The translations under genes and the position numbers were made by a program. Below are positions 7,102 to 25,512 of a DNA stretch of 64,000 nt, piece by piece. The notes beneath the pieces were generated by a model, which did not search any database, had not been told where the DNA came from, and saw nothing but the letters and a program-made list of their open reading frames with translations. The stretch is from Vibrio atlanticus (GTDB lineage Bacteria > Pseudomonadota > Gammaproteobacteria > Enterobacterales > Vibrionaceae), in contig NZ_AP025460.1 of NCBI RefSeq assembly GCF_024347315.1, positions 1,860,001 to 1,924,000 on the forward strand. The letters are read 5' to 3'. The number at the start of each line of letters is the position of its first letter. Within the stretch, counting starts at the first letter, position 1.

Positions 7102-7115
7102 GAGCAATACTTCTT

Positions 7116-10100: not shown

Positions 10101-10457
10101 ACTTAATCCTCCAACGGAACGAATTTGTAGCCAGCCTTTATCATATACAATGCTGTCTTTAAGTAATTTTTTTGATTGGCTATTAATGACATCTAACGCA
10201 GCATTTCTCAACGAAGCTTCGTGATGTAATAACCCGGTGAGTAAAAGAGCAATCGTCGACTTACCAGACCCATATGGCCCGGTTAAAGTGTAAGATCGCT
10301 GACCCGTTTGAGCATACTGCCTGAGCAAAGTTTCTAAAGCGGTTTGAGCTGTACCGTGATAAACGAGACCTGGGAAAAAATCTTTACTTAAGTCGCTGTC
10401 GATACGAGTCGAGCGCTGGTGTCTAGTTGCAATAGAGTAATTATTACTTAACGTCAC
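7116..10457 (-). CDS. sspC: SspC-like large P-loop ATPase
   Basis: The 1113-aa protein has Walker A GPYGSGKS at 60-67 and a Walker B-like hydrophobic strand ending in ADE at about 174-181. The remainder is long, mainly helical and without other motifs I recognise. Position between a DUF4007 gene and a DndC-like gene fits SspC, the ATPase needed for single-strand phosphorothioate modification. It starts with GTG, overlaps the end of sspB by 14 bases and has AGGGAAA upstream, so it is coupled to sspB. ATP hydrolysis probably drives DNA unwinding or exchange during nick-directed sulfur insertion; that is family knowledge, not visible here. Confidence 0.8.
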   Translation of the reverse strand: MTLSNNYSIATRHQRSTRIDSDLSKDFFPGLVYHGTAQTALETLLRQYAQTGQRSYTLTGPYGSGKSTIALLLTGLLHHEASLRNAALDVINSQSKKLLKDSIVYDKGWLQIRSVGGLSSPVKTFWNATLAALKEHHKTNTLYEKYCTLSIHTESELVNIWEALFEEAHELVDGVLLLADEMGKSLEYINKSRGELHLFQDIAEVLGRTKTPVIFMGLLHQSFSEYAKERGSKLQEEWNKIQGRYNDIIYNVSTDETVALIGQSIQNESGERCTDDHYVNAVLEAMNDKQERKKLLKERLDRCIPLHPTSALLLGPISKRRFSQNERSTFSFLNSHEQNSFQLFLKTAVEKSDRYNLVDLWDYLEVNLEHAIISSPDGHAWATATEAIRQARQKGLPDIATEILKTIALITLFGKPANLTATEELLLASTDVDTRESLTEYLNMLKDKSCIIYRKHLSSWMVFEGSDLDIPSLIEEKVEQIKDVQEAITHAKFQSQVIAKGHYHTTGTLRWAEQNLVTNLEELEKWPSSSSSEGAFISFYLVLDDSEQLKKASQKNDRIVLARANDAEEIIALAKECYALDLIKSDEKIGRILTHDKVAQKEYEGRLINAELALNNAILYSFESSTWCYRGEEYSHESLSHVTTLAADHIFDHSPEIKNELVNRNKLSGTAVSALKKLLEAMLKFEEKEDLGINGFPPEKSMYISCLKNTSIHDAKAKDKRYWHTENLDPKLSELFIKSLELLEDSSGKEVKLSEIAELWAAQPYGLTKGVIPIFLLAFLKSQGSNIAYYEKDMSGSFAFIAQPDLDYVHKLIKNQDELAVKYIVLEKSEREWLQHLAVFASNETNKQITTDILSVATPLVTTIHNLPQWVKNAHELVPEDATKNKIYLRIRDLFLQANDPHTLLIKDLHSELNLEGVSTLTQQIDILSDCFSVLRQKHERMLGGIKDKVKVIFPEAGEELVDMCRFVEENAGDLRLKAFARELAKSNTGLLQWLESMIQIVVGRGKQNWNEGILRTADNKISDYAQDFLSVVKSQRLQNNENSEVTKTKLVSLVLEGEDGKLTSYKKEVRVAEVEKIQPVLNAIEAKLNDLNEFEKVHVLQKLLKKTLEAQV

Positions 10458-11433
10458 GTTGTTTCCCTTCCTGGTAGTAGCTAACCAGGTATTGTTCTGG
10501 TAATTCTAGTTGTAAGTCTGAGTAAGCATGTTGAAGCTGACGTAGGCCCTGAGTATCAGTCCAAGCTAACTGCCCTATAGTTAGTACTTCCAATTGATCT
10601 AGTTTTTCACTTAAACCTGTACTCGACAATCGGAAAACTCTACCTGGAGAGCCTACATCATTCAGTAATGAATCGAATGACACTGTTCGCTGTTTATGAA
10701 TTACATTACCATCAGTATCTTTTTGTTTTCTCTGCATAAAATCGATAACTGCATAGGAAAAAACCTCTATAGGAAGTGATGCTTGCTTTGAAAGTTCAGC
10801 TCTATAATCTTTTGCACTTTCTTGAGAGATTAATCCTAGTTCAGTAAAGGGAGAGGTAAAGCTATCTTCATTGATTTTATGCACTGACGTTTTTTTAACC
10901 GCATACATTTGAAGTAAGCAGTCAATATCTTTTTTGAGTGTTGCTTCCGTTAATTCTTTCTCATGTTGCTTAAGCGAAAGCCTAATCTCACTTAGAATAT
11001 GCTCTTTGTTCGTGCGGACACCGTTGTAGTAATTAAAAAACCACCGTGCGGCATTAAGCTCTGCATTTTGACTATCGACTGATTGCATTAACCAATGTAG
11101 TAACCAAACAGTACCAACCTTATCCATGAATTCATCATAAGGTTTTACGTCGGATGACTTACCTACAAACAACAGATTAGCTAAAGGAGTCAATTTATAG
11201 CTCTGATCCTTTTTATCAATACAAGTAACTAAATTGAGAGTGCGAATCCAATGCCGTACAGAAAGAACCATATTCTTACCCATACCCATCGTTCTCATCT
11301 GTTTTTCAACATTATCTTTACTTGAAAGAGACTCTCCTTTCATAACCTCTTGAATTATCTTATAAATCCAACCATATCGGATAGGGAATGTCTGATGACC
11401 AGAAAATTTTAGGCTACTAGTTTCGATGCTCAA
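10444..11433 (-). CDS. sspB: SspB-like DUF4007 protein (site-specific nickase of phosphorothioation)
   Basis: The N terminus FSGHQTFPIRYGW, followed by GMGKNMVLSVRHWIR and LLHWLMQS, is the DUF4007 signature. In Ssp systems this protein is the DNA-binding subunit that recognises and nicks the target before sulfur insertion. I place the start at the TTG at 11431-11433, preceded by TAAGG eight bases upstream, which gives about 329 aa; a TTG at 11475 would add 14 residues but lacks a ribosome site. It leads the sspBCD operon. The 330-375 bp gap to sspA is a divergent promoter region. Confidence 0.82.
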   Translation of the reverse strand: MSIETSSLKFSGHQTFPIRYGWIYKIIQEVMKGESLSSKDNVEKQMRTMGMGKNMVLSVRHWIRTLNLVTCIDKKDQSYKLTPLANLLFVGKSSDVKPYDEFMDKVGTVWLLHWLMQSVDSQNAELNAARWFFNYYNGVRTNKEHILSEIRLSLKQHEKELTEATLKKDIDCLLQMYAVKKTSVHKINEDSFTSPFTELGLISQESAKDYRAELSKQASLPIEVFSYAVIDFMQRKQKDTDGNVIHKQRTVSFDSLLNDVGSPGRVFRLSSTGLSEKLDQLEVLTIGQLAWTDTQGLRQLQHAYSDLQLELPEQYLVSYYQEGKQRDVK

Positions 11434-11808
11434 TGTACTTACCTTACTGAATTGGAGATTTTGTCCAAACAGCAATTCTACAGCATATCTATAGCAGATC
11501 TAGCTCTAATGCAAAAACTATCAATCAAACACAGAATAAATAAACAAATACATTAAAATACAATTACTTACGCAGAGAAATCTGTGCATACATACAGCAG
11601 TTGAATATCGAATGATATATATACGTTTATCCCAATTTACACTCTACTTGTACTGCATTGTATTTTAAAAGATGGTAACGTCTCTATAACTTTGCAAAGG
11701 ACTATTTGTCGAGTAATGAGTATTCTAGTATTAAACTCATTACTACAATGAGCTTGTTACGATCTCCAAGACTGATATAAGTCAACTTACAACATAGACA
11801 TAACTGTG
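11434..11808. promoter_or_regulatory. Divergent sspB / sspA promoter region
   Basis: This AT-rich stretch of about 375 bp without a gene separates the minus-strand sspBCD operon from the + strand sspA gene. It must hold both promoters. I could not pick out a convincing -35/-10 pair or operator by eye, and no regulator gene lies within it. Confidence 0.5.
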
Positions 11809-12864
11809 ATGAATAACTATTACGATTACGCCGCTTCTACTCCTATATCTCCACTCGCTCTCGACGTAATGAAGCCATGGGAAGTGGAGAACTTTTCTAA
11901 CGCCTCATCGGCTCATCAAGCCGGTAGATCTAGTTGTCAAGCTATACAGCAATCAAGAGAAATAATTGCCAATAAAATAGGGGCGTTGCCTAGCGAGATC
12001 ATCTTTACTAGTGGGGCAAGTGAAGCAAATAATCTTGCTCTAAAAGGGATTGCGTTTAAACACCTTGAACATAAAGGGCACATTATAACTTCGTCAATAG
12101 AGCATAAGTGTATCCTCAATACATGTGCTTTTTTAGAATCTCTTGGATTTGAAGTGACGTACTTAGAGCCCAACAAAACAGGTACAATTTTAACAGAATC
12201 TCTACGCGAAGCACTTCGTAACGATACGATCTTAATCTCAATCCATCACGTTAATAATGAGCTAGGTACGATTCAGCCCATTGAAGCATTTGGCGCAATC
12301 GCATTTGAAAATGATATCCCCTTTCACACCGATGCAGCACAAAGCTTTTGTAAGTGTGATATTGATGTCGATGATATGGATATCGACATGCTGTCGCTGT
12401 CAGGACATAAGATTTATGGCCCTAAGGGCATTGGCGCGCTGTATGTGAGAAATGCTAGAGACGCCGACCTTGTGCCACTTATTCATGGTGGCGGACAGGA
12501 AGGAGGCCTAAGAGGAGGCACCTCTCCCACCCCACTCATGATTGGACTGGCCGCTGCGGTCGAGCATTTTCCTAAGAGTGTGAGTGAGCAAGAGCACCAC
12601 TTTCTAACTGTTATTCAAGATTTCAAATGGATTAGAAACGGTGGTGAGCAAGTTGTCTCAACAACGTGGAGTCTTACCTTTGAGTCCGACGACGAAGTGA
12701 AGCGGTTTACTCAAGAACACCCTTGGCTAATATCTCAGGGGTCAGCATGTAATGCCTTATCAAACGTCGCGTCACATGTACTGACTGCGATAGGACTCGA
12801 TGAAGAGCTGGCAAGACGAACCTATCGCATTAGCCTACCACCACACCGAATTAACGGCGAGTAA
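11809..12864 (+). CDS. sspA: SspA-like cysteine desulfurase
   Basis: A 351-aa class V aminotransferase-fold cysteine desulfurase of the IscS/DndA/SspA type. Visible features are H99 (SIEHK), the PLP lysine in SGHK (K201), and the active-site cysteine in GSACNA (C314). It mobilises sulfur from L-cysteine as a persulfide for transfer to SspD. The ATG at 11809 is preceded in frame by a GTG at 11806; neither has a clear ribosome site. Its 3' end overlaps the end of the convergent methyltransferase gene by 14 bases. It is shorter than the usual 380-400 aa but the catalytic residues are all present. Confidence 0.87.
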   Translation: MNNYYDYAASTPISPLALDVMKPWEVENFSNASSAHQAGRSSCQAIQQSREIIANKIGALPSEIIFTSGASEANNLALKGIAFKHLEHKGHIITSSIEHKCILNTCAFLESLGFEVTYLEPNKTGTILTESLREALRNDTILISIHHVNNELGTIQPIEAFGAIAFENDIPFHTDAAQSFCKCDIDVDDMDIDMLSLSGHKIYGPKGIGALYVRNARDADLVPLIHGGGQEGGLRGGTSPTPLMIGLAAAVEHFPKSVSEQEHHFLTVIQDFKWIRNGGEQVVSTTWSLTFESDDEVKRFTQEHPWLISQGSACNALSNVASHVLTAIGLDEELARRTYRISLPPHRINGE

Positions 12865-14911
12865 GCCGGTAGCCATTTACTGTTTTTCCCGCAGATAAAA
12901 GCAGTTCGTCGTATTGCTGCCGATGAAGAATAACTTCTCCAGTGCTTTCTACACCCAAAATCTTTGATAAACGCTTATCAAAGCTTTTTTGCTTTTCATA
13001 GTTCTTGTCGCTAACGCTCAATAATTCGTGTTTATTTAACAGTGGTGGACGTCGCTTTACATCAACATAGTCAAAGAAGTCGATATCTTGATCTGCCATT
13101 CTAATTTTTGTTCGCTCGACTAAAAACGGTACCGATTGTTCAAACTCATCATAATGCATCAAGGTTAACTTACCCGACGTCATATGAACCTTAATCAAGT
13201 CAACGGAGTCATTCAGGTCTCCATACATCTGCAATCCAGCTCCAACATAAACCCGAAGGGCTAGTGGCAATTCCTCTACAAACTGTTTGTGACAGATAAG
13301 GGAATGCCCTTTGTTTAACAAGCTTGCAGGCAAGTTTTGATGAGCTTTTTCACACTGGGAAGCAATCAGCGAAGTATCTGCAATGGCAAAGAGTAGTTCT
13401 GTCGCCAAATTTACGGCTGTACTGTAGTCATCAAACAATGCCTTAATATCACGTTTTAGAGAGTCAGGTTGCTGTGCATAAGGCTTTCTTTTCTCAAATA
13501 GCCCCATTGCAAAGTAGAGTAATAGATCTTCTTTCCTAGCAGTTTGAGCAGCGGAAAATTCATGTGTATCAAACATCTCTTGCAGTAAACCAAAAACTTT
13601 TTTATGCGAGCCTACCAACTCACGAATACATTCTGATTGCTCAAACTCATCATTGGCCGGGATGCGGCCTAGCGTTAAGCATCTATTCCAAAAAGCATCG
13701 AAGATTACTTGGTTTTGAGTGATCACTAATTTTGCTTGATCTTTACTATCGATCGGTTGCGGCGACGTTAGTTGCTGCCAAGTATGGTGCCGTTGATATT
13801 TGCTTTGCAGGTATAACTGCTCTTCCAATTTATCTTTAAAAACAAAAAATATTCCAGGGGAAACGGCAATGGCGTCTTCCTGAAGTGAACGTTCTAAGTA
13901 TCCCTTAATTTCCGATTGCCCGTAATACTTCTGAAATGTGTTACGTGAGGTGATAACGCCATCGTTAAACGGCTTAAACTGTGCAATGTAGCTATCATTT
14001 GCCAGCATAACCGACACAACAAGTAGCTTATCTACAAGCTCCCATGCCCCTAGAAGCGCATCAAGTCTCTCGTCTTGGTTTTCTATTACGTTCAGTACAA
14101 AACCAAGATTCACGATATCTGAATTAACCTTGTCGCCATCTGGGCTAAATACGGGGTCCCAGCCAAGCACATCTATCCCATGAGCCTCTAGTTCTCTTAA
14201 GTCATCCCCTCGCCCACAACCATAATCAAAAATGGAATATCTAGCATCTAAATAGCCTTGCTTAGCTAACGACTTCATCGGTCCAGAAAGATCGTGACGT
14301 ACGATAGCTGTTTTATATCTATCTATTCCAACTTGTAAGTCATCATCGTTTTTATTTATATCAGGTATGGGAGTAGCTTTAAATAGACGTCCATCTATTA
14401 ACTCATACCCTTTTTTATCAATAATGTTCTGCCAAGAACGCCTAAAACCTATCGTTCTTCTATTCTCATATAAACCCGCACTTTCGCCCTCTTTCGTCAA
14501 TGAAACAAAATGTTCAAAGTAGTCACTACTCGGCAACACCATGGTTTCTTTACGATGAAGGATTGGCGGATTATCTGAATTTCTATAACAGGTAACTTTG
14601 TGGCTAAGCTTGTTTAAATCGACATTAAGACTTTGTTCGAGAACTGGATATGAATCGGAATAAAATTCAGGGTAACTAAGTAAAGAAAGGCGAAACTCAT
14701 TTTTGAACAGTTTTATCAAATTCCATTGCTCGTCAGGTAAACTCACAGCTTTGGCAACAGCAATAACAAACTTTTGTAACTGATTAGGTATAGCCTCCAT
14801 AGCATCTTTGTGGATGTAAATAGCATCTGGTAACTTTTTACCTACTTCAATGTTCTTAACCAGTTGCTTAAAAAGCTTACAGTCCATAAGTTCTCGTTCC
14901 TCTTCATCCAC
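12851..14911 (-). CDS. Putative DNA phosphorothioation-associated methyltransferase
   Basis: The 686-aa protein contains an S-adenosylmethionine-binding motif I, FDYGCGRGDD at about 227-237, with GIDVLGWDP after it as motif II. Flanking regions fit the family annotated as DNA phosphorothioation-associated putative methyltransferase, found beside dnd/ssp loci; its target has not, to my knowledge, been fixed. It starts at GTG with AGGA eight bases upstream. Its end overlaps sspA tail to tail, and its start is divergent from the HEPN gene across about 165 bp. Methylation of DNA, RNA or protein all remain possible. Confidence 0.75.
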   Translation of the reverse strand: MDEEERELMDCKLFKQLVKNIEVGKKLPDAIYIHKDAMEAIPNQLQKFVIAVAKAVSLPDEQWNLIKLFKNEFRLSLLSYPEFYSDSYPVLEQSLNVDLNKLSHKVTCYRNSDNPPILHRKETMVLPSSDYFEHFVSLTKEGESAGLYENRRTIGFRRSWQNIIDKKGYELIDGRLFKATPIPDINKNDDDLQVGIDRYKTAIVRHDLSGPMKSLAKQGYLDARYSIFDYGCGRGDDLRELEAHGIDVLGWDPVFSPDGDKVNSDIVNLGFVLNVIENQDERLDALLGAWELVDKLLVVSVMLANDSYIAQFKPFNDGVITSRNTFQKYYGQSEIKGYLERSLQEDAIAVSPGIFFVFKDKLEEQLYLQSKYQRHHTWQQLTSPQPIDSKDQAKLVITQNQVIFDAFWNRCLTLGRIPANDEFEQSECIRELVGSHKKVFGLLQEMFDTHEFSAAQTARKEDLLLYFAMGLFEKRKPYAQQPDSLKRDIKALFDDYSTAVNLATELLFAIADTSLIASQCEKAHQNLPASLLNKGHSLICHKQFVEELPLALRVYVGAGLQMYGDLNDSVDLIKVHMTSGKLTLMHYDEFEQSVPFLVERTKIRMADQDIDFFDYVDVKRRPPLLNKHELLSVSDKNYEKQKSFDKRLSKILGVESTGEVILHRQQYDELLLSAGKTVNGYRLTRR

Positions 14912-15075: not shown

Positions 15076-15732
15076 ATGCATAATTATAATGACTTAAAAC
15101 AACGTCAAAGATCTGAGCGTGCTCGCTACCCTCAGAACCTTAGCTTACGTGTGCACCGAGCCTTGAGCTGGCTGAATAAGTCAGAGCTTTGTGATGACGA
15201 TGACTCCAAGTTCATTTTTTTATGGATTGCTTTCAACTCCGCTTATGCTCAAGAGTTTGAACAACGACAACAATTCGGCGAGCAAGGTCTTTATGGCAAG
15301 TTTTTGAAAAAGCTCATCACTTGTGATCAGCGAGAGCAATTACACAATTTAGTTTGGGACGAGTATTCCAACACGATTCGAGTGATCTTGGATAACGAAT
15401 TCATCCTCCAGGCATATTGGGATTATCAAGCCAGCCGAATTACCGAAGATAGCTGGAAAAATGAACGAAGCAAAGCTAAAGCTGCCGCTAACAAAGCGCT
15501 GAGTCAAAACGATACAGCTAAAGTTCTATCGATATTGTTTTCTCGCCTATACACTCTGCGTAACCAGCTTATCCATGGCGGTGCTACTTACTTAAGCTCG
15601 GCAAATAGACAGCAGCTCAAAGACTGCTGCGGTATTTTAGAAAAACTGGTCCCGAGTATTATTGAAATCATGATGGACTCAGCAGACAAGGTTTGGGGAG
15701 AAGCTGTTTATCCGCTTATCAGCCAGGACTAG
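15076..15732 (+). CDS. HEPN-domain protein, putative RNase
   Basis: The 218-aa protein is helical and carries RNQLIHG, which gives the HEPN ribonuclease signature R-x4-H (R162, H167). An intact motif of this type marks the metal-independent RNases found in many abortive-infection systems. It starts 165 bp from, and divergent to, the phosphorothioation-associated methyltransferase. No nucleotidyltransferase antitoxin gene is next to it. An effector that halts growth on infection, linked to the Ssp locus, is a reasonable inference but is not demonstrated by the sequence. Confidence 0.65.
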   Translation: MHNYNDLKQRQRSERARYPQNLSLRVHRALSWLNKSELCDDDDSKFIFLWIAFNSAYAQEFEQRQQFGEQGLYGKFLKKLITCDQREQLHNLVWDEYSNTIRVILDNEFILQAYWDYQASRITEDSWKNERSKAKAAANKALSQNDTAKVLSILFSRLYTLRNQLIHGGATYLSSANRQQLKDCCGILEKLVPSIIEIMMDSADKVWGEAVYPLISQD

Positions 15733-15789: not shown

Positions 15790-16404
15790 CTAACTCGTAG
15801 CGGACTCATTAACCTGTGGGATAAACCCTACTTTGATTATTTCAACCATACATCTTGGCGTTAGAACCGTAACATTCAAATCACCGTATATATCTGCTCG
15901 ATCTCTATATCCATCTGGATGCCACTCATGTAGTTCATTTATCCATATGAGCCAAGGCTTACCTTCTAGCTCTACAAACACCCCATTGGGTAAATTCTCA
16001 AGCTTCTCGTTATAGATAACCTTTTTACCACCTCTTATCGCTCTATCTTGATGAAGAACTTTATCTATTTCATCGACTTTCAATTCGCTTAGCTGAGCCG
16101 CATCCCATGCTTGTTTAAACTCATCAAACCTTTGCCTTCTGCACGAAGCGCAAGGTCTATGTCCTGCCGACAATGCGGTGGCCTCATCAAGAAAAAACAG
16201 TTCGGAGTAACTATTTTGACTAAAAACCTCACGTTTACGTTCTTTGAAATTTAACTCACAAAGCACCCAGTTTTTGTGCTTCCAAGGACGTATAATTTCC
16301 TTCTTTTCATTATGCAGAATGCCTCTATTGCCAAGCCAAGAACCTCGAGCGGTGTCAATAAGTAGTTCACCACTTGGGCTTACTCTATTTTGTAATGGCA
16401 TCAT
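15790..16404 (-). CDS. Conserved protein with Ada-like RPCxxC zinc-site segment
   Basis: The 204-aa protein contains ATALSAGHRPCASCRR (residues 75-90). This closely resembles EALAAGFRPCKRCQ, the second half of the zinc-binding, methylphosphotriester-repair domain of E. coli Ada. A single further cysteine (C49) lies 36 residues before C85; Ada has a pair there. The N-terminal part has a GSWLGNRGILH segment I associate with a widespread uncharacterised family. AAGGAG precedes the double ATG. It ends the minus-strand run that also encodes an HNH nuclease. A role in sensing backbone-modified DNA is an attractive but untested inference. Confidence 0.6.
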   Translation of the reverse strand: MMPLQNRVSPSGELLIDTARGSWLGNRGILHNEKKEIIRPWKHKNWVLCELNFKERKREVFSQNSYSELFFLDEATALSAGHRPCASCRRQRFDEFKQAWDAAQLSELKVDEIDKVLHQDRAIRGGKKVIYNEKLENLPNGVFVELEGKPWLIWINELHEWHPDGYRDRADIYGDLNVTVLTPRCMVEIIKVGFIPQVNESATS

Positions 16405-16436
16405 CGAACTCCTTGAGTCTGAATTGGTTTAAATCG

Positions 16437-17339
16437 TTAGGTATTTCGATGCTGCTTATCGTCTACCGGTACAAATAGCTCATTGATAATAGAGATATAA
16501 CGCTCAGCTACGATACCGCCTTCTAGGTATGCCATCTCGAGGATCATTGACACCTGTTCACTGTTCTCGAGAGGTGTGTAGTTTTTCTCCGCCATATAAG
16601 CTTCAATTACCGCAATCTGATCATCACACCCTTCTAGGAACTCACGAAAATCTTTGCTTGCCTTTGCGCTGTTACATTCTTTACAACTCGGTACCAGATT
16701 CCCGAGTCGATGCTCTCCTAGGTAAACCTTATTAATGGGGATTGCATGCTCAATAATCAGTTCCTTTGACTCACCACAATAAACACAACGATGGTTGAAG
16801 TAGGCTTTGGTTTCCTGCCAGTCTTCTTCTAAGAACTGTTCTGTTCCGAGGTTACTAAGAATATTTCGCACTAATAGATTTTGAGCATTGGCTATAGCAT
16901 TACCTCGGTAACGGCTCTTGGTTCTTAGCGTTATTACTGATGGTCTGCACGAAGATATTGTTCTTGATTCAAGTAACTCACTCTCCACCTGAGAATGATC
17001 ATAGTCGATACCGATCCGTTCTAAGTATTTAGTAAAGTAAACCTCGTCTTTTTCAAACCACTGGCTACATGCACGAACAGTTTGCCCACGCACCAAGTAA
17101 GCTTTGGTCCAATATCGTTTAGATAAATCCGAAGAAAGACTGCTGATTGGAACCAAAAAAGGAAAGTTAAGGTTAAAGTTACGTTTGGAGTAATCTGCAT
17201 CGCAAAGGCACTCAAATTCGTTCTGACTTTTTTGCTCGCAATATTCCAATATCTTGGGCAGAAGTGTCTGTACTAACTTTCCAATTTTCATAGCTGGTTC
17301 ACTTATTCCTAAACTGACGATACTAGTAAGTATATGCAC
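16437..17339 (-). CDS. HNH endonuclease
   Basis: The 300-aa protein has a classic HNH motif at about residues 185-224: CVYC, then IIEHAIP (catalytic H198), LGNLVPSCKECN (central N214, second zinc pair). The N-terminal 180 residues show no recognised domain and may bind DNA or a partner. The open frame begins at GTG (17339); an ATG at 17291 is an alternative start, and neither has a strong ribosome site. It lies between the ankyrin gene and the Ada-like gene on the same strand with short gaps. It is likely the DNA-cutting part of this unnamed module. Confidence 0.75.
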   Translation of the reverse strand: MHILTSIVSLGISEPAMKIGKLVQTLLPKILEYCEQKSQNEFECLCDADYSKRNFNLNFPFLVPISSLSSDLSKRYWTKAYLVRGQTVRACSQWFEKDEVYFTKYLERIGIDYDHSQVESELLESRTISSCRPSVITLRTKSRYRGNAIANAQNLLVRNILSNLGTEQFLEEDWQETKAYFNHRCVYCGESKELIIEHAIPINKVYLGEHRLGNLVPSCKECNSAKASKDFREFLEGCDDQIAVIEAYMAEKNYTPLENSEQVSMILEMAYLEGGIVAERYISIINELFVPVDDKQHRNT

Positions 17340-17369
17340 TAGCTATGAAACAGGAGAACGTGATTTAGC

Positions 17370-18845
17370 TTAATCGGTTAGATACTTTTGTATATAACGC
17401 ATAACATCATGGGATTCGAAGTGTTCCGCGATATCTAAACAATCAATGGCTCGTTTAGGAAAAGGTCTACCAACCGGTACTGTATACGTTTTCTTCCAGT
17501 CTCCACCCAGTTCGATCATTTTCTTGAACAATTGCGGCTCGTTAAGCTCTGCAGCCAGCATCAGCGGTGTATAACGCATGCCATTTTTTACCACTTCAAT
17601 ATTTGGATTGGCACCAGCATTTAAAAGGATTCGAGCAATCTGGCGCATAGAAGAAGGTTTGGGGAAGCGTTCCGTCACATATTCAAAGAGAGCGTCCATC
17701 ATCGCGAGGAGCCTTTGGTCCTGTTGTTGAGCACTCAAATGAGTGCTCAACTCTGCATTGAATGGTGAGCTCGTCCCTGCGAATAGGGGCTTAAGCTGGT
17801 TCACTGCCTCTTCACTTGGCATCGACATAAGACTTTCCTTGAACTTGCTCGGATTATTGATCATTGCAAGCTTACCCAAACACGCATACAGCGGCGTTTG
17901 ATATTCAATACTTCCCTTCAGATCGATCGTGATATCCTTGCTCATCGATAACACCTCTTTCACGATCTCTGGACGACCACTCTCAACCGCAGCAAACAAA
18001 GGAAAATTCATTTTTCGCGTAGAGATTGAATTTAGAGTTTTCTCGCTGTGCACATGCACTGAGATAAGATTGAAAATTGAGTCGTCTAGTGGCGACGTCG
18101 GTTCACTAAAATCAAGATTCGCTAGAGCAATCAATAGCGGGGACTCGCCCACTTCCGAAAGAGCATTAACACTTGCACCCAATTTAAGCAGTTTTTCAAC
18201 TTTCTCAACGTCGTTGTTTAGACAAGCATAGATAAGTGGTGTTGTCTTTCGCTTCGCTCCCCCATCCAGACCAATTTCAATTTTCTTTCGCTTAGAGTCA
18301 GTGTGCTCGGAAGAGTCGATATCTTCTAGAACATGACCAACTTTTTGCTTGTATACCGACCATTTAATTCCTGGATAACATAGTTCATCAGGGTAGTAAC
18401 GCTTAAATTCCGTGCGATAAGCCTCCGCTTCGTTGTTAGCTAGTACCTGGTATTTTCCTGAACCTTCTGTTTGGTACTTTGCTGGCAACAGTTCATTAAA
18501 AAAGTAGACCTGTGCAGTTTTTAATCTTTTGAGAAAAACTAAATCTGGCCTAGTTTGATGAGCGGCAACCAACAACGACTCCTTGATGATCTCTCCTAGC
18601 GCTGCATTTGAATGATCCCGATACAAAGCCGCTGTAAACGCTTGCTGACAGTACTCGTTTGCTTTGGTTAGCCCCCCAGACCAAATCGAATGCCTAGCTT
18701 TGTACCAAAGCAGATGATGATACGCTTCTATCTTGCTAGGAAGCCCCTCAATCACCAGTTCCAAGTTTGTTAACCGCTTTTCAAACTCGTTCTTGTGGGC
18801 CACAGACTTTGAAGTATGACTGACTGCCTCGTACCACTGTTTCAA
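17370..18845 (-). CDS. Ankyrin-repeat protein
   Basis: The 491-aa protein has ankyrin-type repeats: TTPLIYACLNNDVEKVEKLL at about 206, further units around NFPLFAAVESGRPEIVKEVL and, near the C terminus, YTPLMLAAELNEPQLFKKMI. The N-terminal 190 residues are helical and unrecognised. There is no signal peptide or membrane segment, so it is cytoplasmic and probably mediates protein-protein contact. It starts at TTG overlapping the upstream stop (TTGA), a translationally coupled start without its own strong ribosome site. Coupling to the 244-aa gene implies a stoichiometric partner. Confidence 0.75.
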   Translation of the reverse strand: MKQWYEAVSHTSKSVAHKNEFEKRLTNLELVIEGLPSKIEAYHHLLWYKARHSIWSGGLTKANEYCQQAFTAALYRDHSNAALGEIIKESLLVAAHQTRPDLVFLKRLKTAQVYFFNELLPAKYQTEGSGKYQVLANNEAEAYRTEFKRYYPDELCYPGIKWSVYKQKVGHVLEDIDSSEHTDSKRKKIEIGLDGGAKRKTTPLIYACLNNDVEKVEKLLKLGASVNALSEVGESPLLIALANLDFSEPTSPLDDSIFNLISVHVHSEKTLNSISTRKMNFPLFAAVESGRPEIVKEVLSMSKDITIDLKGSIEYQTPLYACLGKLAMINNPSKFKESLMSMPSEEAVNQLKPLFAGTSSPFNAELSTHLSAQQQDQRLLAMMDALFEYVTERFPKPSSMRQIARILLNAGANPNIEVVKNGMRYTPLMLAAELNEPQLFKKMIELGGDWKKTYTVPVGRPFPKRAIDCLDIAEHFESHDVMRYIQKYLTD

Positions 18846-19576
18846 TGAACGGATCTGTTCGCAGAACTCATGATAATTTTTCTACGATTCCTGTTAGCGT
18901 CCAGAAAGGCTTTTGCATGTGAAAATGATACGTTCGTAAACGTCGAACTTGATTGTATATAACGAACAAAACGTGAGGTAATGATACCCCACTTGACCAT
19001 TCTCCATGATTCGTCCGATAAGGCGTGATCAGCTGCGCTATCCATACTCATCACAAAACGAAAAGAAGGAAGTTCAGTTCCATTCCACCACGTTCGTAGC
19101 CGGTCTTTCATGTCCTTATCATCAAAACAGCTTTGAAGTAATGGAAGCATGTCCGGATTGAATAAGGTGAGTTCCATGTCATTTGGCAGACTGAGAGTTA
19201 GTCCAGCTTCCTCTTCATTCAAAAAGCAACTAAGTACAAGATTTTCAAAAAACTGCGTGCGCTCAAACAGTTCATTCGCCTGCTCAACAGAAAGAGAATC
19301 CAATGGATAGTTTTTCATCCAATGAGCGTAACGTTTGAGTAAGTTAGACAAAAAGTTTTCAACTCTCGCTGAAATCTCGTCATCAAAGTTTTGTCTTATT
19401 GGATTCAGAATGTTCAACGACAATATCGCGTGATACTTGTCGATACTCAATTCTTCTACTTTGCAGCTGTCATCTTCGTCACTAGCTGTTTTTACATCAA
19501 ATGCAATAGCGACTTCTCGCAGTAAGCACTGAATAGTGGGATACTGCTTAGCTCGTTTTTTGTGAAGCAGCTTCAT
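18842..19576 (-). CDS. Unknown 244-aa protein of the ankyrin/HNH module
   Basis: I do not recognise this protein. It is soluble, mostly helical, acidic in the first half and basic at the C terminus (NRNRRKIIMSSANRS). No enzyme motif is visible. It starts at ATG 19576 with AGGA eight bases upstream, overlapping the end of the HicA-like gene by 29 bases. Its stop overlaps the start of the ankyrin gene. The double overlap places it firmly in this operon. Confidence 0.6.
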   Translation of the reverse strand: MKLLHKKRAKQYPTIQCLLREVAIAFDVKTASDEDDSCKVEELSIDKYHAILSLNILNPIRQNFDDEISARVENFLSNLLKRYAHWMKNYPLDSLSVEQANELFERTQFFENLVLSCFLNEEEAGLTLSLPNDMELTLFNPDMLPLLQSCFDDKDMKDRLRTWWNGTELPSFRFVMSMDSAADHALSDESWRMVKWGIITSRFVRYIQSSSTFTNVSFSHAKAFLDANRNRRKIIMSSANRSVH

Positions 19577-19775
19577 TGCTGATTATCCTTAGAATGTCTT
19601 TCTTGAAGTTAATGTAAGCCCACCGTTCACTGGGAGTGGAAGGTATGGTTATACGTTTACCTAAAGGTGATAACAACGCAACATGTTTGGTACCACGGAC
19701 AGCGGTCCAGCAGCTAAGTTTCACTAATGAGCGCACAAACTTATTGATATCCTTATCTTTGCTCATTCTTCGCAC
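19548..19775 (-). CDS. HicA-like small protein
   Basis: The 75-aa protein has the pattern of HicA mRNA interferases: a tryptophan strand, then RGTKHVALLSPLGKRITIPSTP, in which the KH resembles the conserved HicA histidine region, followed by a terminal helix. There is no HicB-like antitoxin next to it. AAGGAG lies four bases before a GTG start (19775). It overlaps the 244-aa gene. It could be a HicA-type toxin reused as an RNA-binding subunit of the module, or simply a dsRBD-fold protein. The family call is tentative. Confidence 0.45.
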   Translation of the reverse strand: MRRMSKDKDINKFVRSLVKLSCWTAVRGTKHVALLSPLGKRITIPSTPSERWAYINFKKDILRIISNEAASQKTS

Positions 19776-19785
19776 AAAACTCCTT

Positions 19786-19810
19786 CATAGGGCCGTGAAC
19801 CGGCCCTATG
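19786..19810. other. Perfect 10-bp hairpin
   Basis: CATAGGGCCG is followed after a 5-base loop by its exact inverse. It lies between the 46-aa gene and the HicA-like gene on the minus strand. There is no T-run, so it is unlikely to be a full terminator. An attenuator, RNA-processing site or protein-binding palindrome would fit. Confidence 0.6.
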
Positions 19811-19819
19811 CTAGTTGAT

Positions 19820-19960
19820 TTACTTAGAACGCTTATCTACGACACTTTGAGCTTTGGCCGCAAAGCTGCCTTTTGGGATTTTTCCTCCGTTCGCTTTTGC
19901 CGTGGCTGACTGTATACGGCGAACATCAGTTTGAGTTAAAGGTTTCTTAGATTCCGTCAT
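19820..19960 (-). CDS. 46-aa SMP-like peptide
   Basis: This short gene encodes 46 residues with the pattern seen in small bacterial proteins annotated as seed-maturation-protein (SMP)-like: DVRRIQSATAKANGG, then KGSFAAKAQS. AGGAG is seven bases before the ATG. Such genes are often on plasmids and islands and have no known function. It is the first gene of the minus-strand run ending at 15790. Confidence 0.6.
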   Translation of the reverse strand: MTESKKPLTQTDVRRIQSATAKANGGKIPKGSFAAKAQSVVDKRSK

Positions 19961-20172: not shown

Positions 20173-20613
20173 TTAGAGCACCTCCCTAGCCATATCCCCC
20201 GCTCTTCCCATCTGTTCAAAATCCCCGACCTTATGCGCACGCCTTACTTCAACAAACTTACTGGATCTCAACGTATCAACTTGTTGCCATAAATGACGGT
20301 TAGCTACTGGTTTCTTATCTGATTTGCGCCACCCTTTTGCTTTCCAGTTATCTAACCATTCATTGAACCCTTTCACACAATATTCACTACTCGAATACAG
20401 GCAGTCTCCATCTCTGGCATAAGCTATAGCTTCTATCAATGCGATAAGCTCTAACTCAGCACTATCGGCAATCTCACCGACTAATAGATTATTTTCGTCA
20501 ACTAACTGCCCATCGTAGTTATAAACACTGATACCAATCCCACCTTGTAGGTTTGATGTATTGTCTTTCGAAGTCGCGATAGCAATGTAGATTGCACAGT
20601 TTTCTTCATTCAT
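20173..20613 (-). CDS. Degenerate ribonuclease HI-like protein
   Basis: The 146-aa protein aligns along its length with RNase HI, for example WLDNWKAKGWRKSDKKPV (residues 86-103) and HLWQQVD. Of the four catalytic acids of E. coli RnhA, the equivalents of E48 and D134 are present (E55, D140), and H124 (H127), but D10 is Ala13 and D70 is Ser75. It should not cleave RNA-DNA hybrids by the usual two-metal mechanism. It may still bind hybrids or R-loops. It lies upstream of the ankyrin/HNH run on the same strand but 200 bp away. Confidence 0.7.
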   Translation of the reverse strand: MNEENCAIYIAIATSKDNTSNLQGGIGISVYNYDGQLVDENNLLVGEIADSAELELIALIEAIAYARDGDCLYSSSEYCVKGFNEWLDNWKAKGWRKSDKKPVANRHLWQQVDTLRSSKFVEVRRAHKVGDFEQMGRAGDMAREVL

Positions 20614-20690
20614 AATTTTGTTCCTCTTTTTAAGTTTTGGCCCACCATTTTGGCAAAGCCTTAATTTTTTGTCGTAGCGTTGATTCAGTC

Positions 20691-20876
20691 TTAATGGCTT
20701 GGTCTTTGAGCCAAGCGCATTTCCATCCAGTTATTCACCTCTTCTTCTACCCAAGCGACAGCCCTATCTCCCAGGCTTACCGATACAGGAAAATCACCCT
20801 CGTCCATTTTTCTGTAGATCGCCGAGCGACTTAATGCAGTTTTCTCAATCACTTCTTTTAGCTTTAAAAATCTCAT
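20691..20876 (-). CDS. AlpA-family transcriptional regulator
   Basis: The 61-aa excisionase/AlpA-type winged helix-turn-helix protein starts MRFLKLKEV and carries ALSRSAIYRKMDEGDFP as the helix-turn-helix, then the family's GDRAVAWVEEEVNNW. I start it at ATG 20876, seven bases after AGGAG. P4/CP4-type AlpA proteins activate excision genes. The gene is divergent from radC. A second, distinct AlpA gene lies at 30447, nearer the integrase. Confidence 0.85.
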   Translation of the reverse strand: MRFLKLKEVIEKTALSRSAIYRKMDEGDFPVSVSLGDRAVAWVEEEVNNWMEMRLAQRPSH

Positions 20877-21024
20877 GGGACGTTCTCCTATGCCTGTAGT
20901 CCTCATGGGATAAGGAGATAGTGTTAAAAAAAATGAGGCTGGTTCGGCTGACTCTGATTCAAACCTTTTTGAGGTATATGTCATTAAAGTGAATGACCTA
21001 AAGCCTGATTAAAGGAGAACCAAA

Positions 21025-21495
21025 ATGAGAACACTTTCACCACCACTACTCTCACAGCAAGAGCATGAACATCGCGTTCTAGAAAAGGCAGCAGAGATAT
21101 TAGAAGATCGTTATGTACGAGGAGATGTATTTACCAATCCACAAGCTACCCGAGACTATTTGCGATTTAAGATAGGCGGCAGTGAACGCGAAGTGTTCGC
21201 CGTCATGTTGCTAGATAACCAACACCGATTAATTGAGTTTGAGGAGTTGTTTCAAGGGACGATTGATGCGGCAAGCGTCTATCCAAGGGAGGTTGTAAAG
21301 ACTGCTCTGAAGGCTAATGCAGCGGCGGTTATCTTTGCTCATAACCATCCATCAGGCGATCCTGAGCCGTCCCAAGCAGACAAGCGCATCACGACGAGAT
21401 TGCAAGATGCTTTAGCGCTCATTGATGTTCGAGTTTTGGATCATATTGTTGTCGGGGAACAATGCACATCGTTTGCAGAGAGGGGCTGGTTATGA
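21025..21495 (+). CDS. radC: RadC-like JAB/MPN domain protein
   Basis: The 156-aa protein is the MPN (JAB1) metalloprotease-like domain of the RadC family, with the metal motif [16 protein letters not shown] (H-x-H-x7-S-x2-D) at about residues 111-126. It lacks the N-terminal UPF0758 region of chromosomal RadC, as is usual for island-borne copies. AAGGAG precedes the ATG. It is divergent from alpA and overlaps the next gene by four bases. Its function is uncertain; a DNA repair role is disputed. Confidence 0.85.
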
Positions 21496-21920
21496 TTGAG
21501 AAACACTATGGTGACATCACCCTCAATAGCAAACTCCACCAGCAGTTAGAGCAAACTATCGCTCGCTACTCGATCCCTAAAGACACGACACGCATTGCAC
21601 TCAACTGCCGAAACACAAGCTACTACAAAACAAAAGAAGGGGTCGCCCCTGTAGAGATTCAGTTAAAGCGGGAGAATTCACGCTCTGATTGGAATTTGGT
21701 TTTCGTGGCCAATTTTACTTATCAGGACAAAGCCACCGACTCGCTCGATGTGTATCTTTATTTCCACCTACTGAATCACTGGTGCTATCAACCAGATGCA
21801 GGGGCAGCGAGCCTGAGCCACCCTGTCACAACAAAAGTGTTTCAAGCCTGGATGTGCGCTTTCCATGAGCATTTAACTCAGCATGTCTTCGATGACATAC
21901 AGCTCACTCAAGTCCGCTAA
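21492..21920 (+). CDS. DUF2787 protein (first copy)
   Basis: This protein of about 142 aa matches DUF2787, a vibrio-centred family: [20 protein letters not shown], then [12 protein letters not shown] start it at the ATG that overlaps the radC stop (ATGA), ten codons inside the longest open frame. The function of the family is unknown. It is paralogous to the next gene; both have a core pattern R-x-[TS]-S-Y then PVEI. Confidence 0.7.
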
Positions 21921-21969
21921 GGCTAATCCATCACCCGACTCGTTCACCTAAATTCAAGGAGGCATCATT

Positions 21970-22410
21970 ATGTCTACTCTGCTCTTTCATCCATCAAGCT
22001 TACCTGTGTCAGACAAACTTCACGCACTGTTAAACAACCATTTTCAACAACAATTAACCCAGAGTGAGTCAATAGCCCAAAGTACTTACCTGACGTTCAA
22101 CTTTCGAGATAGTTCATACAGCTCAGAAGCTGGTGGGTTTCACCCTGTTGAAATCGCGATGACACAGATCTCCAGTGGTCTATGGAATGTCGAATACATC
22201 ACTGATTTCGCTTACGTTGGGAATGTGTATCCAGAATTGGCGCGATGTCTAGACTTTGATTTTCGAGACCAAGCGTTCTTTACAGAATTCGGGGGATGGA
22301 GCCCAATCAAGGGCAACTATTCCGCTGTAGAGATGTTCGAGCTTTGGCAGGATAACTTCTTAAACTACATCGATATGGAAGCGTTTGACTCTATATCTAT
22401 CACTTCGTAA
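21970..22410 (+). CDS. DUF2787 protein (second copy)
   Basis: The 146-aa paralogue of the preceding gene has NFRDSSYSSEAGGFHPVEI and WNVEYITDFAYVG. AAGGAGG lies nine bases before the ATG, a strong ribosome site. The two copies are quite diverged from each other, so the duplication is old. The role is unknown; association with radC and alpA is typical of vibrio islands. Confidence 0.7.
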   Translation: MSTLLFHPSSLPVSDKLHALLNNHFQQQLTQSESIAQSTYLTFNFRDSSYSSEAGGFHPVEIAMTQISSGLWNVEYITDFAYVGNVYPELARCLDFDFRDQAFFTEFGGWSPIKGNYSAVEMFELWQDNFLNYIDMEAFDSISITS

Positions 22411-22586
22411 TGAGAGAACAACCCGTCCGGGTCTATGTCACGATACAAAGGCACCGGACCACTACAGCCATCAAAAGTCGTGCTTCGGAGAGAGCTAACC
22501 CTATATGTAGTAAGGCCTGAATGACTTTTCATCATTGACTCCCTCCCCTCGACTTATCACTACATTACCGATAAGTGATACCAATC

Positions 22587-22838
22587 ATGCCCAATATCTC
22601 CCCATTAAAAGAGCAGCTCACAAAAGCGCTCATCAGAGTCGCTCTCGCGAGTTGTCATTACCTTAATGAACAGTATCAGCACTTTAAAAAGGAGGTAGAG
22701 CAAAGTTCAGATCACGAACTGTTTGAATTCGTTCAACGCCTTTCTTCCACCCATCTGAAACGGCTCTTAGCCACTATTGAGTTGATGAACAGAGGTTATC
22801 TACTGAGTGAAATTCTAGAAGCTGGAAAGGATAAATAA
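22587..22838 (+). CDS. Small helical protein, unknown
   Basis: This is an 83-aa soluble helical protein beginning MPNISPLKEQL. The open frame extends four codons upstream to a GTG, and no clear ribosome site decides between the two starts. I recognise no family. It sits in the same + strand series as radC and the DUF2787 genes, after a 175-bp gap that holds nothing I can identify. Confidence 0.5.
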   Translation: MPNISPLKEQLTKALIRVALASCHYLNEQYQHFKKEVEQSSDHELFEFVQRLSSTHLKRLLATIELMNRGYLLSEILEAGKDK

Positions 22839-22986
22839 TGGCCTTTCCCGAGGTCATTTAAATTCAAATATACAGCCCATTTCACATAATCATTATCCGC
22901 CATTTGAGTGAGACGTTATTTGTCTCACCCATCCTTATCCTAATGCCATCAGTGATGGTTCATAGACACCCAACTAAGGATTCACA

Positions 22987-23322
22987 ATGACCACAAGTAA
23001 TGTACTGCATCATACCAATGATGAAGAGCTCATCGCTTTAATCCAACGAAAAGAGTCGTTCACCATAACTCGGGTAAAAAACTTCTCTCAAGCAGTGAAA
23101 AAGATTGAGCGGCTCATAGAGGAGCAAAGGCTATCTTGTCGAATATACACAGCAGGTCGTTCAACCACGATGGCAGCAACTTTTGCTTCAGGCCCTGCTG
23201 TCATTTTTGGATTAGCTTCAGCTGCCGCAATATCGGCGCATAACTTAGCAACCAGAAACCCAGATTATGAAATAGCTAAGTACCCTCTAGCTAAGAAACT
23301 AGTCATTAACTACAAAAAGTAA
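22987..23322 (+). CDS. 111-aa protein with one hydrophobic segment, unknown
   Basis: The protein has a charged N-terminal half, then a small-residue hydrophobic stretch (about residues 61-85: TMAATFASGPAVIFGLASAA) and a basic C terminus. A single membrane helix is possible, but the alanine/glycine content also fits a buried helix. An AAGGA at the right distance precedes the ATG. It belongs to the island's vibrio-type backbone; no function is assigned. Confidence 0.55.
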   Translation: MTTSNVLHHTNDEELIALIQRKESFTITRVKNFSQAVKKIERLIEEQRLSCRIYTAGRSTTMAATFASGPAVIFGLASAAAISAHNLATRNPDYEIAKYPLAKKLVINYKK

Positions 23323-23429
23323 TCGCATCAGGCTGTGTGGCCACCAGCCGATCCCTAATCAAGTTGAATCTTTAGCTCATCACTTTTTAGTGATGAGGCG
23401 ATTGATCACGTTTAAATTTTGGTGGTCCC

Positions 23430-24179
23430 ATGCCCTCTAAACCGAACAAGCAACGCATCGAACATATTGAGTTGGTGTTTGAAGTTTACTCTCTCATCCC
23501 AACTCAACGAAAGATCACAGTTAGTGAAATTCATGAACGATTAGCGAGTACTGGGATTAAGCGTTCGAAACGTACCGTACAACGCTGCTTGAATATTCTG
23601 ACGGATTACCTAGATATTGAAAAAGACGATAGAACCCTGCCCTATAGCTATCATCGAAGACCCCAACCCGGTGTATTCATGGGCCCTAAAGAATCTGTAC
23701 TTCTTGAGTTTGCTTTTGAGAGTTTAAAAGCAGCACTTCCTGAAAGTTATCTACCAAGTATGCAAGGCGCATTTGCACCCTTTTTGCTAATGGACCACAA
23801 CCAAGGTCCACGTATTGATATTCGATACACGTTAATAAATCAGAAAGAAAATTATGACGAAGCTCTTTTTGACAAGCTTTGTCTAGCAATCTATTACCAG
23901 CGTGAAATTCGCCTCCATCTCAACAGCGAACAAACTCTCCAGTATGTCTGTCCACTTGGGCTTGTGTTAGAGAGTGAAGCCCTTCAATTGATCTACCAAT
24001 TCGAAAGCCATGTTTGCGCCATCCCTCTCAATCAAATTCAAGACATCTACATCAGTACATTCGGGTTTACCTATCCAAAGGGATTTTCACTATCTGAGGT
24101 CATTACACCTAAACGAGAACCAACACTTATAGCCAAATGTTCAAACAACCACACAAGGAATGATCATGAAAAATACTAA
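23430..24179 (+). CDS. WYL-domain transcriptional regulator
   Basis: The 249-aa protein has an N-terminal winged helix-turn-helix (about residues 10-65, KITVSEIHERLASTGIKRSKRTVQR) and a WYL-type ligand domain (about 150-225, LCLAIYYQREIRLHL, then PLGLVLESEALQLIYQFE). WYL regulators commonly control defence islands and mobile elements, often binding nucleotide ligands. The last 14 bases overlap the start of the lipoprotein gene, so the two are co-transcribed. It may regulate its own operon or the island at large. Confidence 0.75.
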   Translation: MPSKPNKQRIEHIELVFEVYSLIPTQRKITVSEIHERLASTGIKRSKRTVQRCLNILTDYLDIEKDDRTLPYSYHRRPQPGVFMGPKESVLLEFAFESLKAALPESYLPSMQGAFAPFLLMDHNQGPRIDIRYTLINQKENYDEALFDKLCLAIYYQREIRLHLNSEQTLQYVCPLGLVLESEALQLIYQFESHVCAIPLNQIQDIYISTFGFTYPKGFSLSEVITPKREPTLIAKCSNNHTRNDHEKY

Positions 24180-25512
24180 CTTACTCAGAACAACTCTCGT
24201 CAGCTCTATCGCTTTAGCTCTGACAGCTTGCGGAGGGGGATCCAATAGCAGTACACCACCTAGCGACCAAACACGCTCAATATCAAGCATGAGTGTTGTT
24301 AATGATGGTTTTCAGACCTTTAAGCCTCGCGCTCACGATCTAACTGGTTATCGAGCATACTCTAGAGCAGCCGCGTTCAATATGCCTTTAGATGACGGGC
24401 AAAGTGCTTACGTTTATGAGAACCCAGAAAATGGTGAAGTCAGCTCGATTAGCTTTGAAGGCGATGATAATGAGAGTGTTGCGACTCCGACTATCGATAT
24501 GATCGTCGACCTAAATACCACCTACTCCGCAATCAACATGAGTAACGTCACCGTCACCGTGGATGACGTGGTGTATGAAGGCAATTACACCCTCATACAG
24601 GACAAGAATACCGGTGATCTTTATCCATTGATCGAGAGCGGCGTTCCTATCTATAAGAAGGTGGAAGCTGAACATGAGGCTTGGATTACCGATACACGCT
24701 TTTCCCACAATGGAGATAGCACGCGTATTTACTTAAGGCACAGTGATGAACTCAGCCTGCATAAAGCAGAGCTTATTGATGGTACGTTTGTCATTTCTAA
24801 AGTCTTTGATGATTACTTCAGAAACAACGTCATTCTATCAACAGGTGATATTGTCACCGTTCCTTGGAGTGGTGATAGCTTAACGTGGCTAGAGTCAGAC
24901 GGTACCGAGCACAACTTTAGTTACGATACGTCACAGCTGTCTGTCCCATTTCTATACGCAGATAAACTTTATGCAATTCGAGATTCCGATGATGCACTGA
25001 TCGAGCTTACATTGAATGGCGCTACCTTAGACCAAACCGATGCTCTATGGACCACCAATGGATACAGGCCGTCCTCCATGAGTGTGGTCCGTGGTGATTA
25101 TAAAATGCATTCAGATTGCTCTGTGTATCAGTTCGATGACATAACCAAAACCATCACACAACTCGAACCACCGAAAGCGTATAGTGGCCACGTAGCCAAT
25201 GCAGGCCAAACCTCACTGTACTGCATGTACTCAAGTGCAGATGATAATAGTGCATGGCCTAGCTTCATGCGTTTTGATATTAGTAAGGCTGAGCTTAACC
25301 AAGCCGCTACAACGACAATCGATGCTTCTAGTGGTACTAAACTCGATGCCAATGAACGAATGGCCGTTGTCAGCGACAACGAGCTGATGTTCTATCAATA
25401 TCCAAGTGGAACCTTTACTGAGTACTACATCAACTTTGACGCTGGTACTACAGTGGAAAAAGAAGTGAGTTCAATAACGGCTATTAAGATGCAAACCGTC
25501 ACTCAAAACTAA
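24166..25512 (+). CDS. Lipoprotein of unknown function
   Basis: This protein of about 448 aa starts with a lipoprotein signal: MKNTNLLR, a hydrophobic run, then LTAC as the lipobox and a GGGSNSST linker. There is no Asp at +2, so outer-membrane sorting is likely. The mature part is acidic and beta-rich with repeated short blocks, perhaps a propeller; I recognise no family. I chose the ATG at 24166 because AAGGA is correctly spaced there and abuts the earlier ATG at 24160. It overlaps the WYL gene and ends at a good terminator. Confidence 0.7.
   Translation: MKNTNLLRTTLVSSIALALTACGGGSNSSTPPSDQTRSISSMSVVNDGFQTFKPRAHDLTGYRAYSRAAAFNMPLDDGQSAYVYENPENGEVSSISFEGDDNESVATPTIDMIVDLNTTYSAINMSNVTVTVDDVVYEGNYTLIQDKNTGDLYPLIESGVPIYKKVEAEHEAWITDTRFSHNGDSTRIYLRHSDELSLHKAELIDGTFVISKVFDDYFRNNVILSTGDIVTVPWSGDSLTWLESDGTEHNFSYDTSQLSVPFLYADKLYAIRDSDDALIELTLNGATLDQTDALWTTNGYRPSSMSVVRGDYKMHSDCSVYQFDDITKTITQLEPPKAYSGHVANAGQTSLYCMYSSADDNSAWPSFMRFDISKAELNQAATTTIDASSGTKLDANERMAVVSDNELMFYQYPSGTFTEYYINFDAGTTVEKEVSSITAIKMQTVTQN

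Follow-up and report, generated by a model that had tools for sequence, protein, structure and literature searches.

Do the six minus-strand genes that stand beside a DNA phosphorothioation system in Vibrio atlanticus form one system, or does a smaller set of them belong together? The genes occupy positions 15790 to 19960 of the window, the whole 64,000-nucleotide stretch that was analysed from a 5.1-Mb genome, and a sequence-only reading had joined them into one module, either a stand-alone defence system or an accessory effector of the Ssp phosphorothioation proteins. Judged by sequence comparison, the real unit is three genes: those for an SMP-like peptide, a HicA-like protein and a protein labelled here Ank750, which is about 750 amino acids long and combines a helical N-terminal part with C-terminal ankyrin repeats. 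This core is real and recurring, and it is unnamed as far as the search reached. The reading preferred for its function, at a rough probability of 0.42, is that the three genes form a mobile cassette that most likely acts against phages or mobile elements and whose HicA-like effector would be gated by Ank750.

The genes of the stretch

The open reading frames (ORFs) and the site that separates two of them are as follows.

19820-19960, minus strand: SMP-like peptide, 46 amino acids (PF04927, E 1.1e-5); cassette gene 1
19548-19775, minus strand: HicA-like protein, 75 amino acids (PADLOC HicA-like PDLC02910, E 1e-20); cassette gene 2
18842-19576, minus strand: 244-amino-acid ORF, read as the 5' piece of the Ank750 gene (about model positions 2-238)
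18845-18890, minus strand: site of the frame change relative to intact relatives (frame and alignment comparison)
17370-18845, minus strand: 491-amino-acid ORF, read as the 3' piece of Ank750, with what is left of the helical region, followed by the ankyrin repeats at the C terminus (about model positions 251-748; Ank_2, 4.5e-13)
16437-17339, minus strand: HNH gene, 300 amino acids (PF01844, 3.2e-8)
15790-16404, minus strand: 204-amino-acid protein, PADLOC candidate PDC-S40 (E 7e-86, nearly full length)

The six ORFs, their coordinates and their overlaps, 29 nucleotides between the HicA-like and 244-amino-acid ORFs and 4 nucleotides (TTGA) between the 244- and 491-amino-acid ORFs, were confirmed as first described; the other neighbours are separated by 30 to 44 nucleotides. 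The domain guesses for the SMP, HicA-like, ankyrin and HNH products likewise hold in Pfam and PADLOC. The 204-amino-acid protein had been labelled an Ada-like zinc-site protein; this label is not borne out, as the protein has no Pfam match and the PADLOC PDC-S40 model covers nearly its whole length. No open-licence paper naming PDC-S40 was found. Rfam gives no known RNA family near the cassette genes at gathering scores. Promoter-like sites are fewer than in shuffled sequences (4 versus 9.6) and terminator-like sites lie near the shuffle mean (5 versus 3.6); neither was used.

Conservation of the three-gene cassette

Ank750 was located at 26 loci, 20 from Ank750 queries (13 places including the window, 5 new ones, 1 and 1) and 6 through a HicA-like query. 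Among the 20 loci found by Ank750 queries, the HicA-like gene lies directly upstream of Ank750 in 19 and is preceded by the SMP-like peptide in 17; the six loci from the HicA-like query (L092, L093, L094, L095, L096 and L100) are left out of this pairing count. The order is SMP, HicA-like, Ank750 wherever the genes are present, and in all 25 loci with both, the HicA-like and Ank750 genes overlap or stand no more than about 12 nucleotides apart. Duplicate genomes were dropped from the locus set and three near-identical Acinetobacter plasmids count as one locus, while L054 and L071, 99% identical and from different genomes, are both counted.

A fixed sample of 197 genomes of the family contains Ank750 in 12 and the HicA-like gene in 13, including all 12. 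The SMP gene is found in 27, as part of the cassette in 12 and away from it in 15; in these 15 genomes (L135-L149) the SMP-like peptides occur without a HicA-like gene, mostly between two small opposite-strand genes. An order-wide search found the HicA-like gene without Ank750 at 6 of 16 places. Hosts of the cassette include Vibrio, Photobacterium, Salinivibrio, Enterovibrio, Psychromonas, Marinomonas and Shewanella, with Shewanella avicenniae, Photobacterium swingsii and Actinobacillus as further hosts, and a plasmid of Acinetobacter soli, on which the HicA-like gene is unannotated. In a sample of 360 genomes of the class, some of them from the same order, matches at E 1e-30 or better come from two, the genome of the window among them. 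No cassette carrier was found among the viral contigs and phage records searched, and no similar DNA was found in E. coli genomes.

The ratio of nonsynonymous to synonymous substitution rates (dN/dS) against the nearest relative, L043 in genome G100, is 0.04 for the SMP gene over 46 codons, 0.20 for the HicA-like gene, 0.18 for the 5' Ank750 piece (residues 52-230) and 0.23 for the 3' piece. These values indicate that the cassette ORFs are not chance frames, the relative compared being itself interrupted in Ank750. Intact Ank750 pairs give 0.12-0.13 in two cases and 0.11 in a third, nearly identical pair; the Photobacterium iliopiscarium/P. malacitanum pair (L051/L053), in which the L053 copy is interrupted, gives 0.63. 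Distances between Ank750 proteins follow those between their HicA-like neighbours, with r of 0.81 over 18 loci and 0.73 when thinned to 16, host descent being uncorrected.

One Ank750 gene, split in the window

The 244- and 491-amino-acid ORFs are, by the comparison of frames, two pieces of one gene. At 10 of the 12 other places found in the family search, the ankyrin match sits in an open frame of 750-760 amino acids, and at the remaining two the frame is interrupted or shorter (701 and 681 amino acids). Matches to the 244-amino-acid ORF fall in these same frames, so that the proposal of a separate gene is given up, and the alignment makes the two ORFs consecutive parts of a single protein, although in the window they are read in different frames. 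An intact and very similar copy of 744 amino acids, P0004, is encoded on another contig; it is available as a protein only, apart from its surrounding DNA, and is not among the counted loci. Since the relatives read one frame and P0004 is intact, the TTGA overlap is the site of a frame change. The coupled starts seen in the sequence-only reading are thus real as overlaps, whereas the coupling at TTGA marks no native gene border. Since the frame runs on unbroken in most relatives, programmed frameshifting was rejected as an explanation. A protein search with the 244-amino-acid ORF returned only itself, as expected of a fragment, because its candidates were of similar length.

Ank750 is interrupted in 4 of the 26 loci, by frame change in the window, L053 and L095 and by an in-frame stop in L043, and in all four the HicA-like gene is an open ORF. 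L150, which has a full-length frame plus an extra out-of-frame ankyrin piece, is counted as not interrupted. Because the frame change splits Ank750, the window copy of this gene is probably impaired, with the HicA-like gene still intact, and the window's cassette may be inactive. That it is a decaying remnant, in which an intact HicA-like protein and SMP-like peptide are left without a working partner, has slightly better than even odds. Besides the frame change, ten residues present in P0004 are missing from the 5' piece, and the nearest island copy, in L043, is likewise interrupted. Against a remnant, the dN/dS of 0.18-0.23 across both pieces speaks for constraint until recently; the two pieces could still assemble, and the short A run makes an assembly error a possible cause of the frame change.

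The predicted structure of the Ank750 relative from L048 (mean predicted local distance difference test score 86.7, predicted template modelling score 0.79) is helical to about residue 410, with ankyrin matches from about 432. Above its cut-offs, Pfam finds ankyrin repeats and no enzymatic domain in three Ank750 relatives, residues 1-430 never having been searched alone; in whole-protein searches the ankyrin part filled the match lists. A profile search with Ank750 listed three proteins among the 7995 candidates that share most words with it, a lower bound, since further relatives must exist. Alignment A4 leaves out the window, L043, L053 and L095 (pieces), L070 (reaching the contig end), and L150 and L151 (found later). 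Membership of the PADLOC Ankyrin family PDLC02908 was rejected for Ank750, which matches this model of 880 positions through the shared C-terminal repeats alone and not along its length; the family member in L101 scores 1568 bits. PDLC02909 (Csa3), numbered between the PADLOC Ankyrin and HicA-like models, was found in none of 13 genomes.

The HicA-like protein and its known relatives

The L048 relative of the HicA-like protein, 47% identical to the window protein, shows a predicted alpha-beta-beta-beta-alpha fold, and its best PDB matches are HicA toxins. A histidine, residue 31 in the window, is the only invariant residue besides Met1 in all 28 rows of alignment A5, which leaves out L053, L071, L150, L151 and the plasmid matches L152-L155. 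We take this histidine to be catalytic and equivalent to that of HicA. The Pfam family HicA_toxin (PF07927) matches neither the window protein nor two relatives scanned, and is borne by 2 of 120 HicA-like profile relatives among the matches listed. In fold, PDB matches, invariant histidine, small size and a gene that comes first in a pair whose members overlap or lie close together, the protein resembles the HicA toxins of HicAB. Unlike HicAB, the cassette combines a HicA-like protein below Pfam's reach with a helical-ankyrin partner of about 750 amino acids, and neither the genes that flank it in the window nor three Ank750 relatives give a HicB-type Pfam match.

A second link leads to the viperins. 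The main text of Gerdes 2024 (PMC10865869) describes HicA toxins as ribonucleases (RNases) and HicA domains as occurring with HicB and beside viperins; it gives 14 HicA contexts, and the word "ankyrin" does not occur in it. The PADLOC HicA-like model PDLC02910 places the window protein in one family with the viperin-linked HicA proteins (classes 9/10 of Gerdes 2024), members at viperin loci scoring 2e-28 and 6e-26. Viperin-linked rows are nested among ankyrin-linked rows, in a tree that is weakly supported. The window cassette differs from these loci in its partner, and has no adjacent pVip gene, the neighbours of the HicA-like gene being SMP and Ank750. A HicA-like gene, a viperin and the 931-amino-acid PADLOC Ankyrin protein stand together in L101 (4747-8803). 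HicA-like genes also stand beside a helix-turn-helix protein of 385 or 425 amino acids in L102 (4537-5902) and L154 (3481-5189), a possible further context. Among the matches listed, whose titles and abstract starts were covered, the open-licence literature yielded no paper on a HicA-like/ankyrin cassette or on an ankyrin partner of HicA, and the conserved HicA-like and ankyrin set matched no named system.

Island setting and the neighbouring genes

The cassette adjoins, as first described, a phosphorothioation system, and it lies on an island with the following features.

20173-25512: island backbone with RNase H, AlpA, RadC (named by eye) and following genes
12851-14911: phosphorothioation-associated methyltransferase (TIGR04096)
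11806-12864: SspA, phosphorothioation set
10444-11475: SspB, phosphorothioation set
7116-10457: SspC, phosphorothioation set
6202-7107: SspD, phosphorothioation set
3522-5651: PbeC, phosphorothioation set
1215-3302: PbeA, phosphorothioation set

A 218-amino-acid protein encoded on the plus strand (15076-15732) faces the 204-amino-acid gene and has a sub-threshold match to RiboL-PSP HEPN (E 9e-6). The AlpA-RadC side is 94-99% identical to the L043 island, the nearest copy, over the genes compared (RNase H 81.5%), with identities of 82-96% for the cassette genes; none of the window genes tested on the other side is shared with L043. Because the sharing with L043 covers the AlpA-RadC side and the cassette and, among the genes tested, stops there, the cassette is read from these comparisons as one cargo unit, often found in AlpA/RadC islands.

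The genes on the far side do not travel with it. At E 1e-8, tblastn finds no match to any of the window's Ssp-region, HEPN, PDC-S40 and HNH genes at 24 other cassette loci; the flanks compared were mostly about 5-6 kb or more, and shorter where the contig itself is short, as in L052 and L070. L151, in whose record two HNH genes are annotated, stands outside this comparison. The HNH gene occurs in 4 of the 197 family genomes, three of them without Ank750, so that of the three genes whose co-occurrence was at issue the 244-amino-acid and ankyrin parts do go together, as one gene, and the HNH gene does not. Its relatives were found in three other genomes of the genus, two at 53% identity, one of these two on a V. 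pectenicida plasmid; the closest lies between two ORFs resembling DNA methyltransferases by eye, near an AlpA gene. The relative that is 81-83% identical has a frame opening two codons before the methionine equivalent to residue 17 of the window HNH protein, and the annotated V. pectenicida relative begins at that methionine. Given these starts, the gap between the ankyrin and HNH genes is probably 78 nucleotides and not the 30 of the ORFs as given. PDC-S40 occurs in this genome only among the 197, but its relatives stand on 32 plasmid records, 24 of them from Shinella (13), Rhizobium (6), Sinorhizobium or Ensifer.

The six-gene module was rejected on these grounds, the HNH and 204-amino-acid genes turning up apart from the others as in the refuting case that the sequence-only reading had set out, and an accessory role for Ssp fares no better: none of the 24 other cassette loci has a relative of a window Ssp-region gene in the stretches examined, and the window's Ssp genes are already accompanied by PbeA- and PbeC-type genes. 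In archaea, Pbe proteins have been described as partners of DNA phosphorothioation with an antiviral role. Arrangement on one strand, with short gaps or overlaps and beside the Ssp genes, is what speaks for either version; both are largely refuted by the sequence comparisons and are very improbable. The stretch is in part ordinary, with two unrelated neighbours and one split gene.

Proposed function and its alternatives

In the preferred reading, the HicA-like protein would be the effector, a small protein of dsRBD fold that binds and probably cuts RNA. Ank750, made from a start overlapping or within about 12 nucleotides of the HicA-like stop, would be the gate or sensor; it would bind the HicA-like protein and release its action once the ankyrin surface encounters a signal, phage-borne or from stress, and the SMP peptide would serve as an auxiliary factor. 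The roles are assigned in this way because the HicA-like protein alone has a fold linked to RNA cleavage and is encoded just before Ank750; a part in defence is suggested by the cassette's place in islands, by the link to viperins and by opinion published on HicA. Shown by the comparisons are the conserved gene order, the co-divergence, the low dN/dS, the moderate match to a HicA-type fold, the conserved histidine, the location in islands and the HicA-like family in common with viperin loci; RNase activity, gating, trigger and defence are inferred from them. The stricter version, an undescribed mobile immune system in which a HicA-fold RNase lacking HicB is gated by a dedicated helical-ankyrin sensor, with the SMP-like peptide as third part, is held tentatively, at clearly less than even odds.

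The scores of the PDB matches to HicA toxins are moderate, which weighs against the preferred reading, and no enrichment of defence genes around the cassette was demonstrated. The neighbours of 20 cassette loci (108 ORFs) include type I restriction-modification, Mrr and GmrSD genes, with 4 matches to N6_Mtase, 4 to Methylase_S, 2 to Mrr_cat and 2 to GmrSD_N. Since the comparison set of SMP-only loci is also rich in type I restriction-modification genes (of the 95 ORFs neighbouring them, 11 are matched by models of type I methyltransferases), nothing is concluded on such enrichment.

A plain toxin-antitoxin pair, in which Ank750 replaces HicB as antitoxin to a HicA-like toxin and the pair stabilises the island, any role against phages being optional, is unlikely. 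The toxin-first order of overlapping or close genes is that of hicAB in the main text of PMC10865869, and the HicA-type fold, the AlpA/RadC backbone and a partner in which Pfam finds no HicB-type domain would suit it. A simple toxin held by Ank750 is disfavoured, however, because the HicA-like gene is open at the four loci with an interrupted Ank750; it also stands without Ank750 at 6 of the 16 places of the order-wide search. An antitoxin of 750 amino acids would be of unusual size. At the four loci, either the pieces still work, or the HicA-like protein is harmless until activated, or the copies are dead otherwise; with modest confidence, we lean towards activation by Ank750.

The same coexistence with interrupted partners would fit a HicA-like protein that binds RNA without cutting it, as a guide or regulator, with Ank750 as effector or scaffold, and such a pair may regulate RNA of the island or host and not defend. 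The failure of HicA_toxin to match agrees with this, whereas the invariance of the histidine and the absence of a Pfam-recognised catalytic domain from the three Ank750 relatives, whose first 430 residues were scanned only within the whole protein, make it rather unlikely.

Among toxin-based anti-phage systems, the cassette may represent a relative not yet described. The conserved pairing draws on the same HicA-like family as viperin loci, which makes partner dependence directly testable and raises the question of whether the HicA-like protein needs a partner to switch it on and whether that partner decides which signal is answered. If the stricter version of the preferred reading is true, one RNA-acting module would be exchanged between different innate-immune partners.

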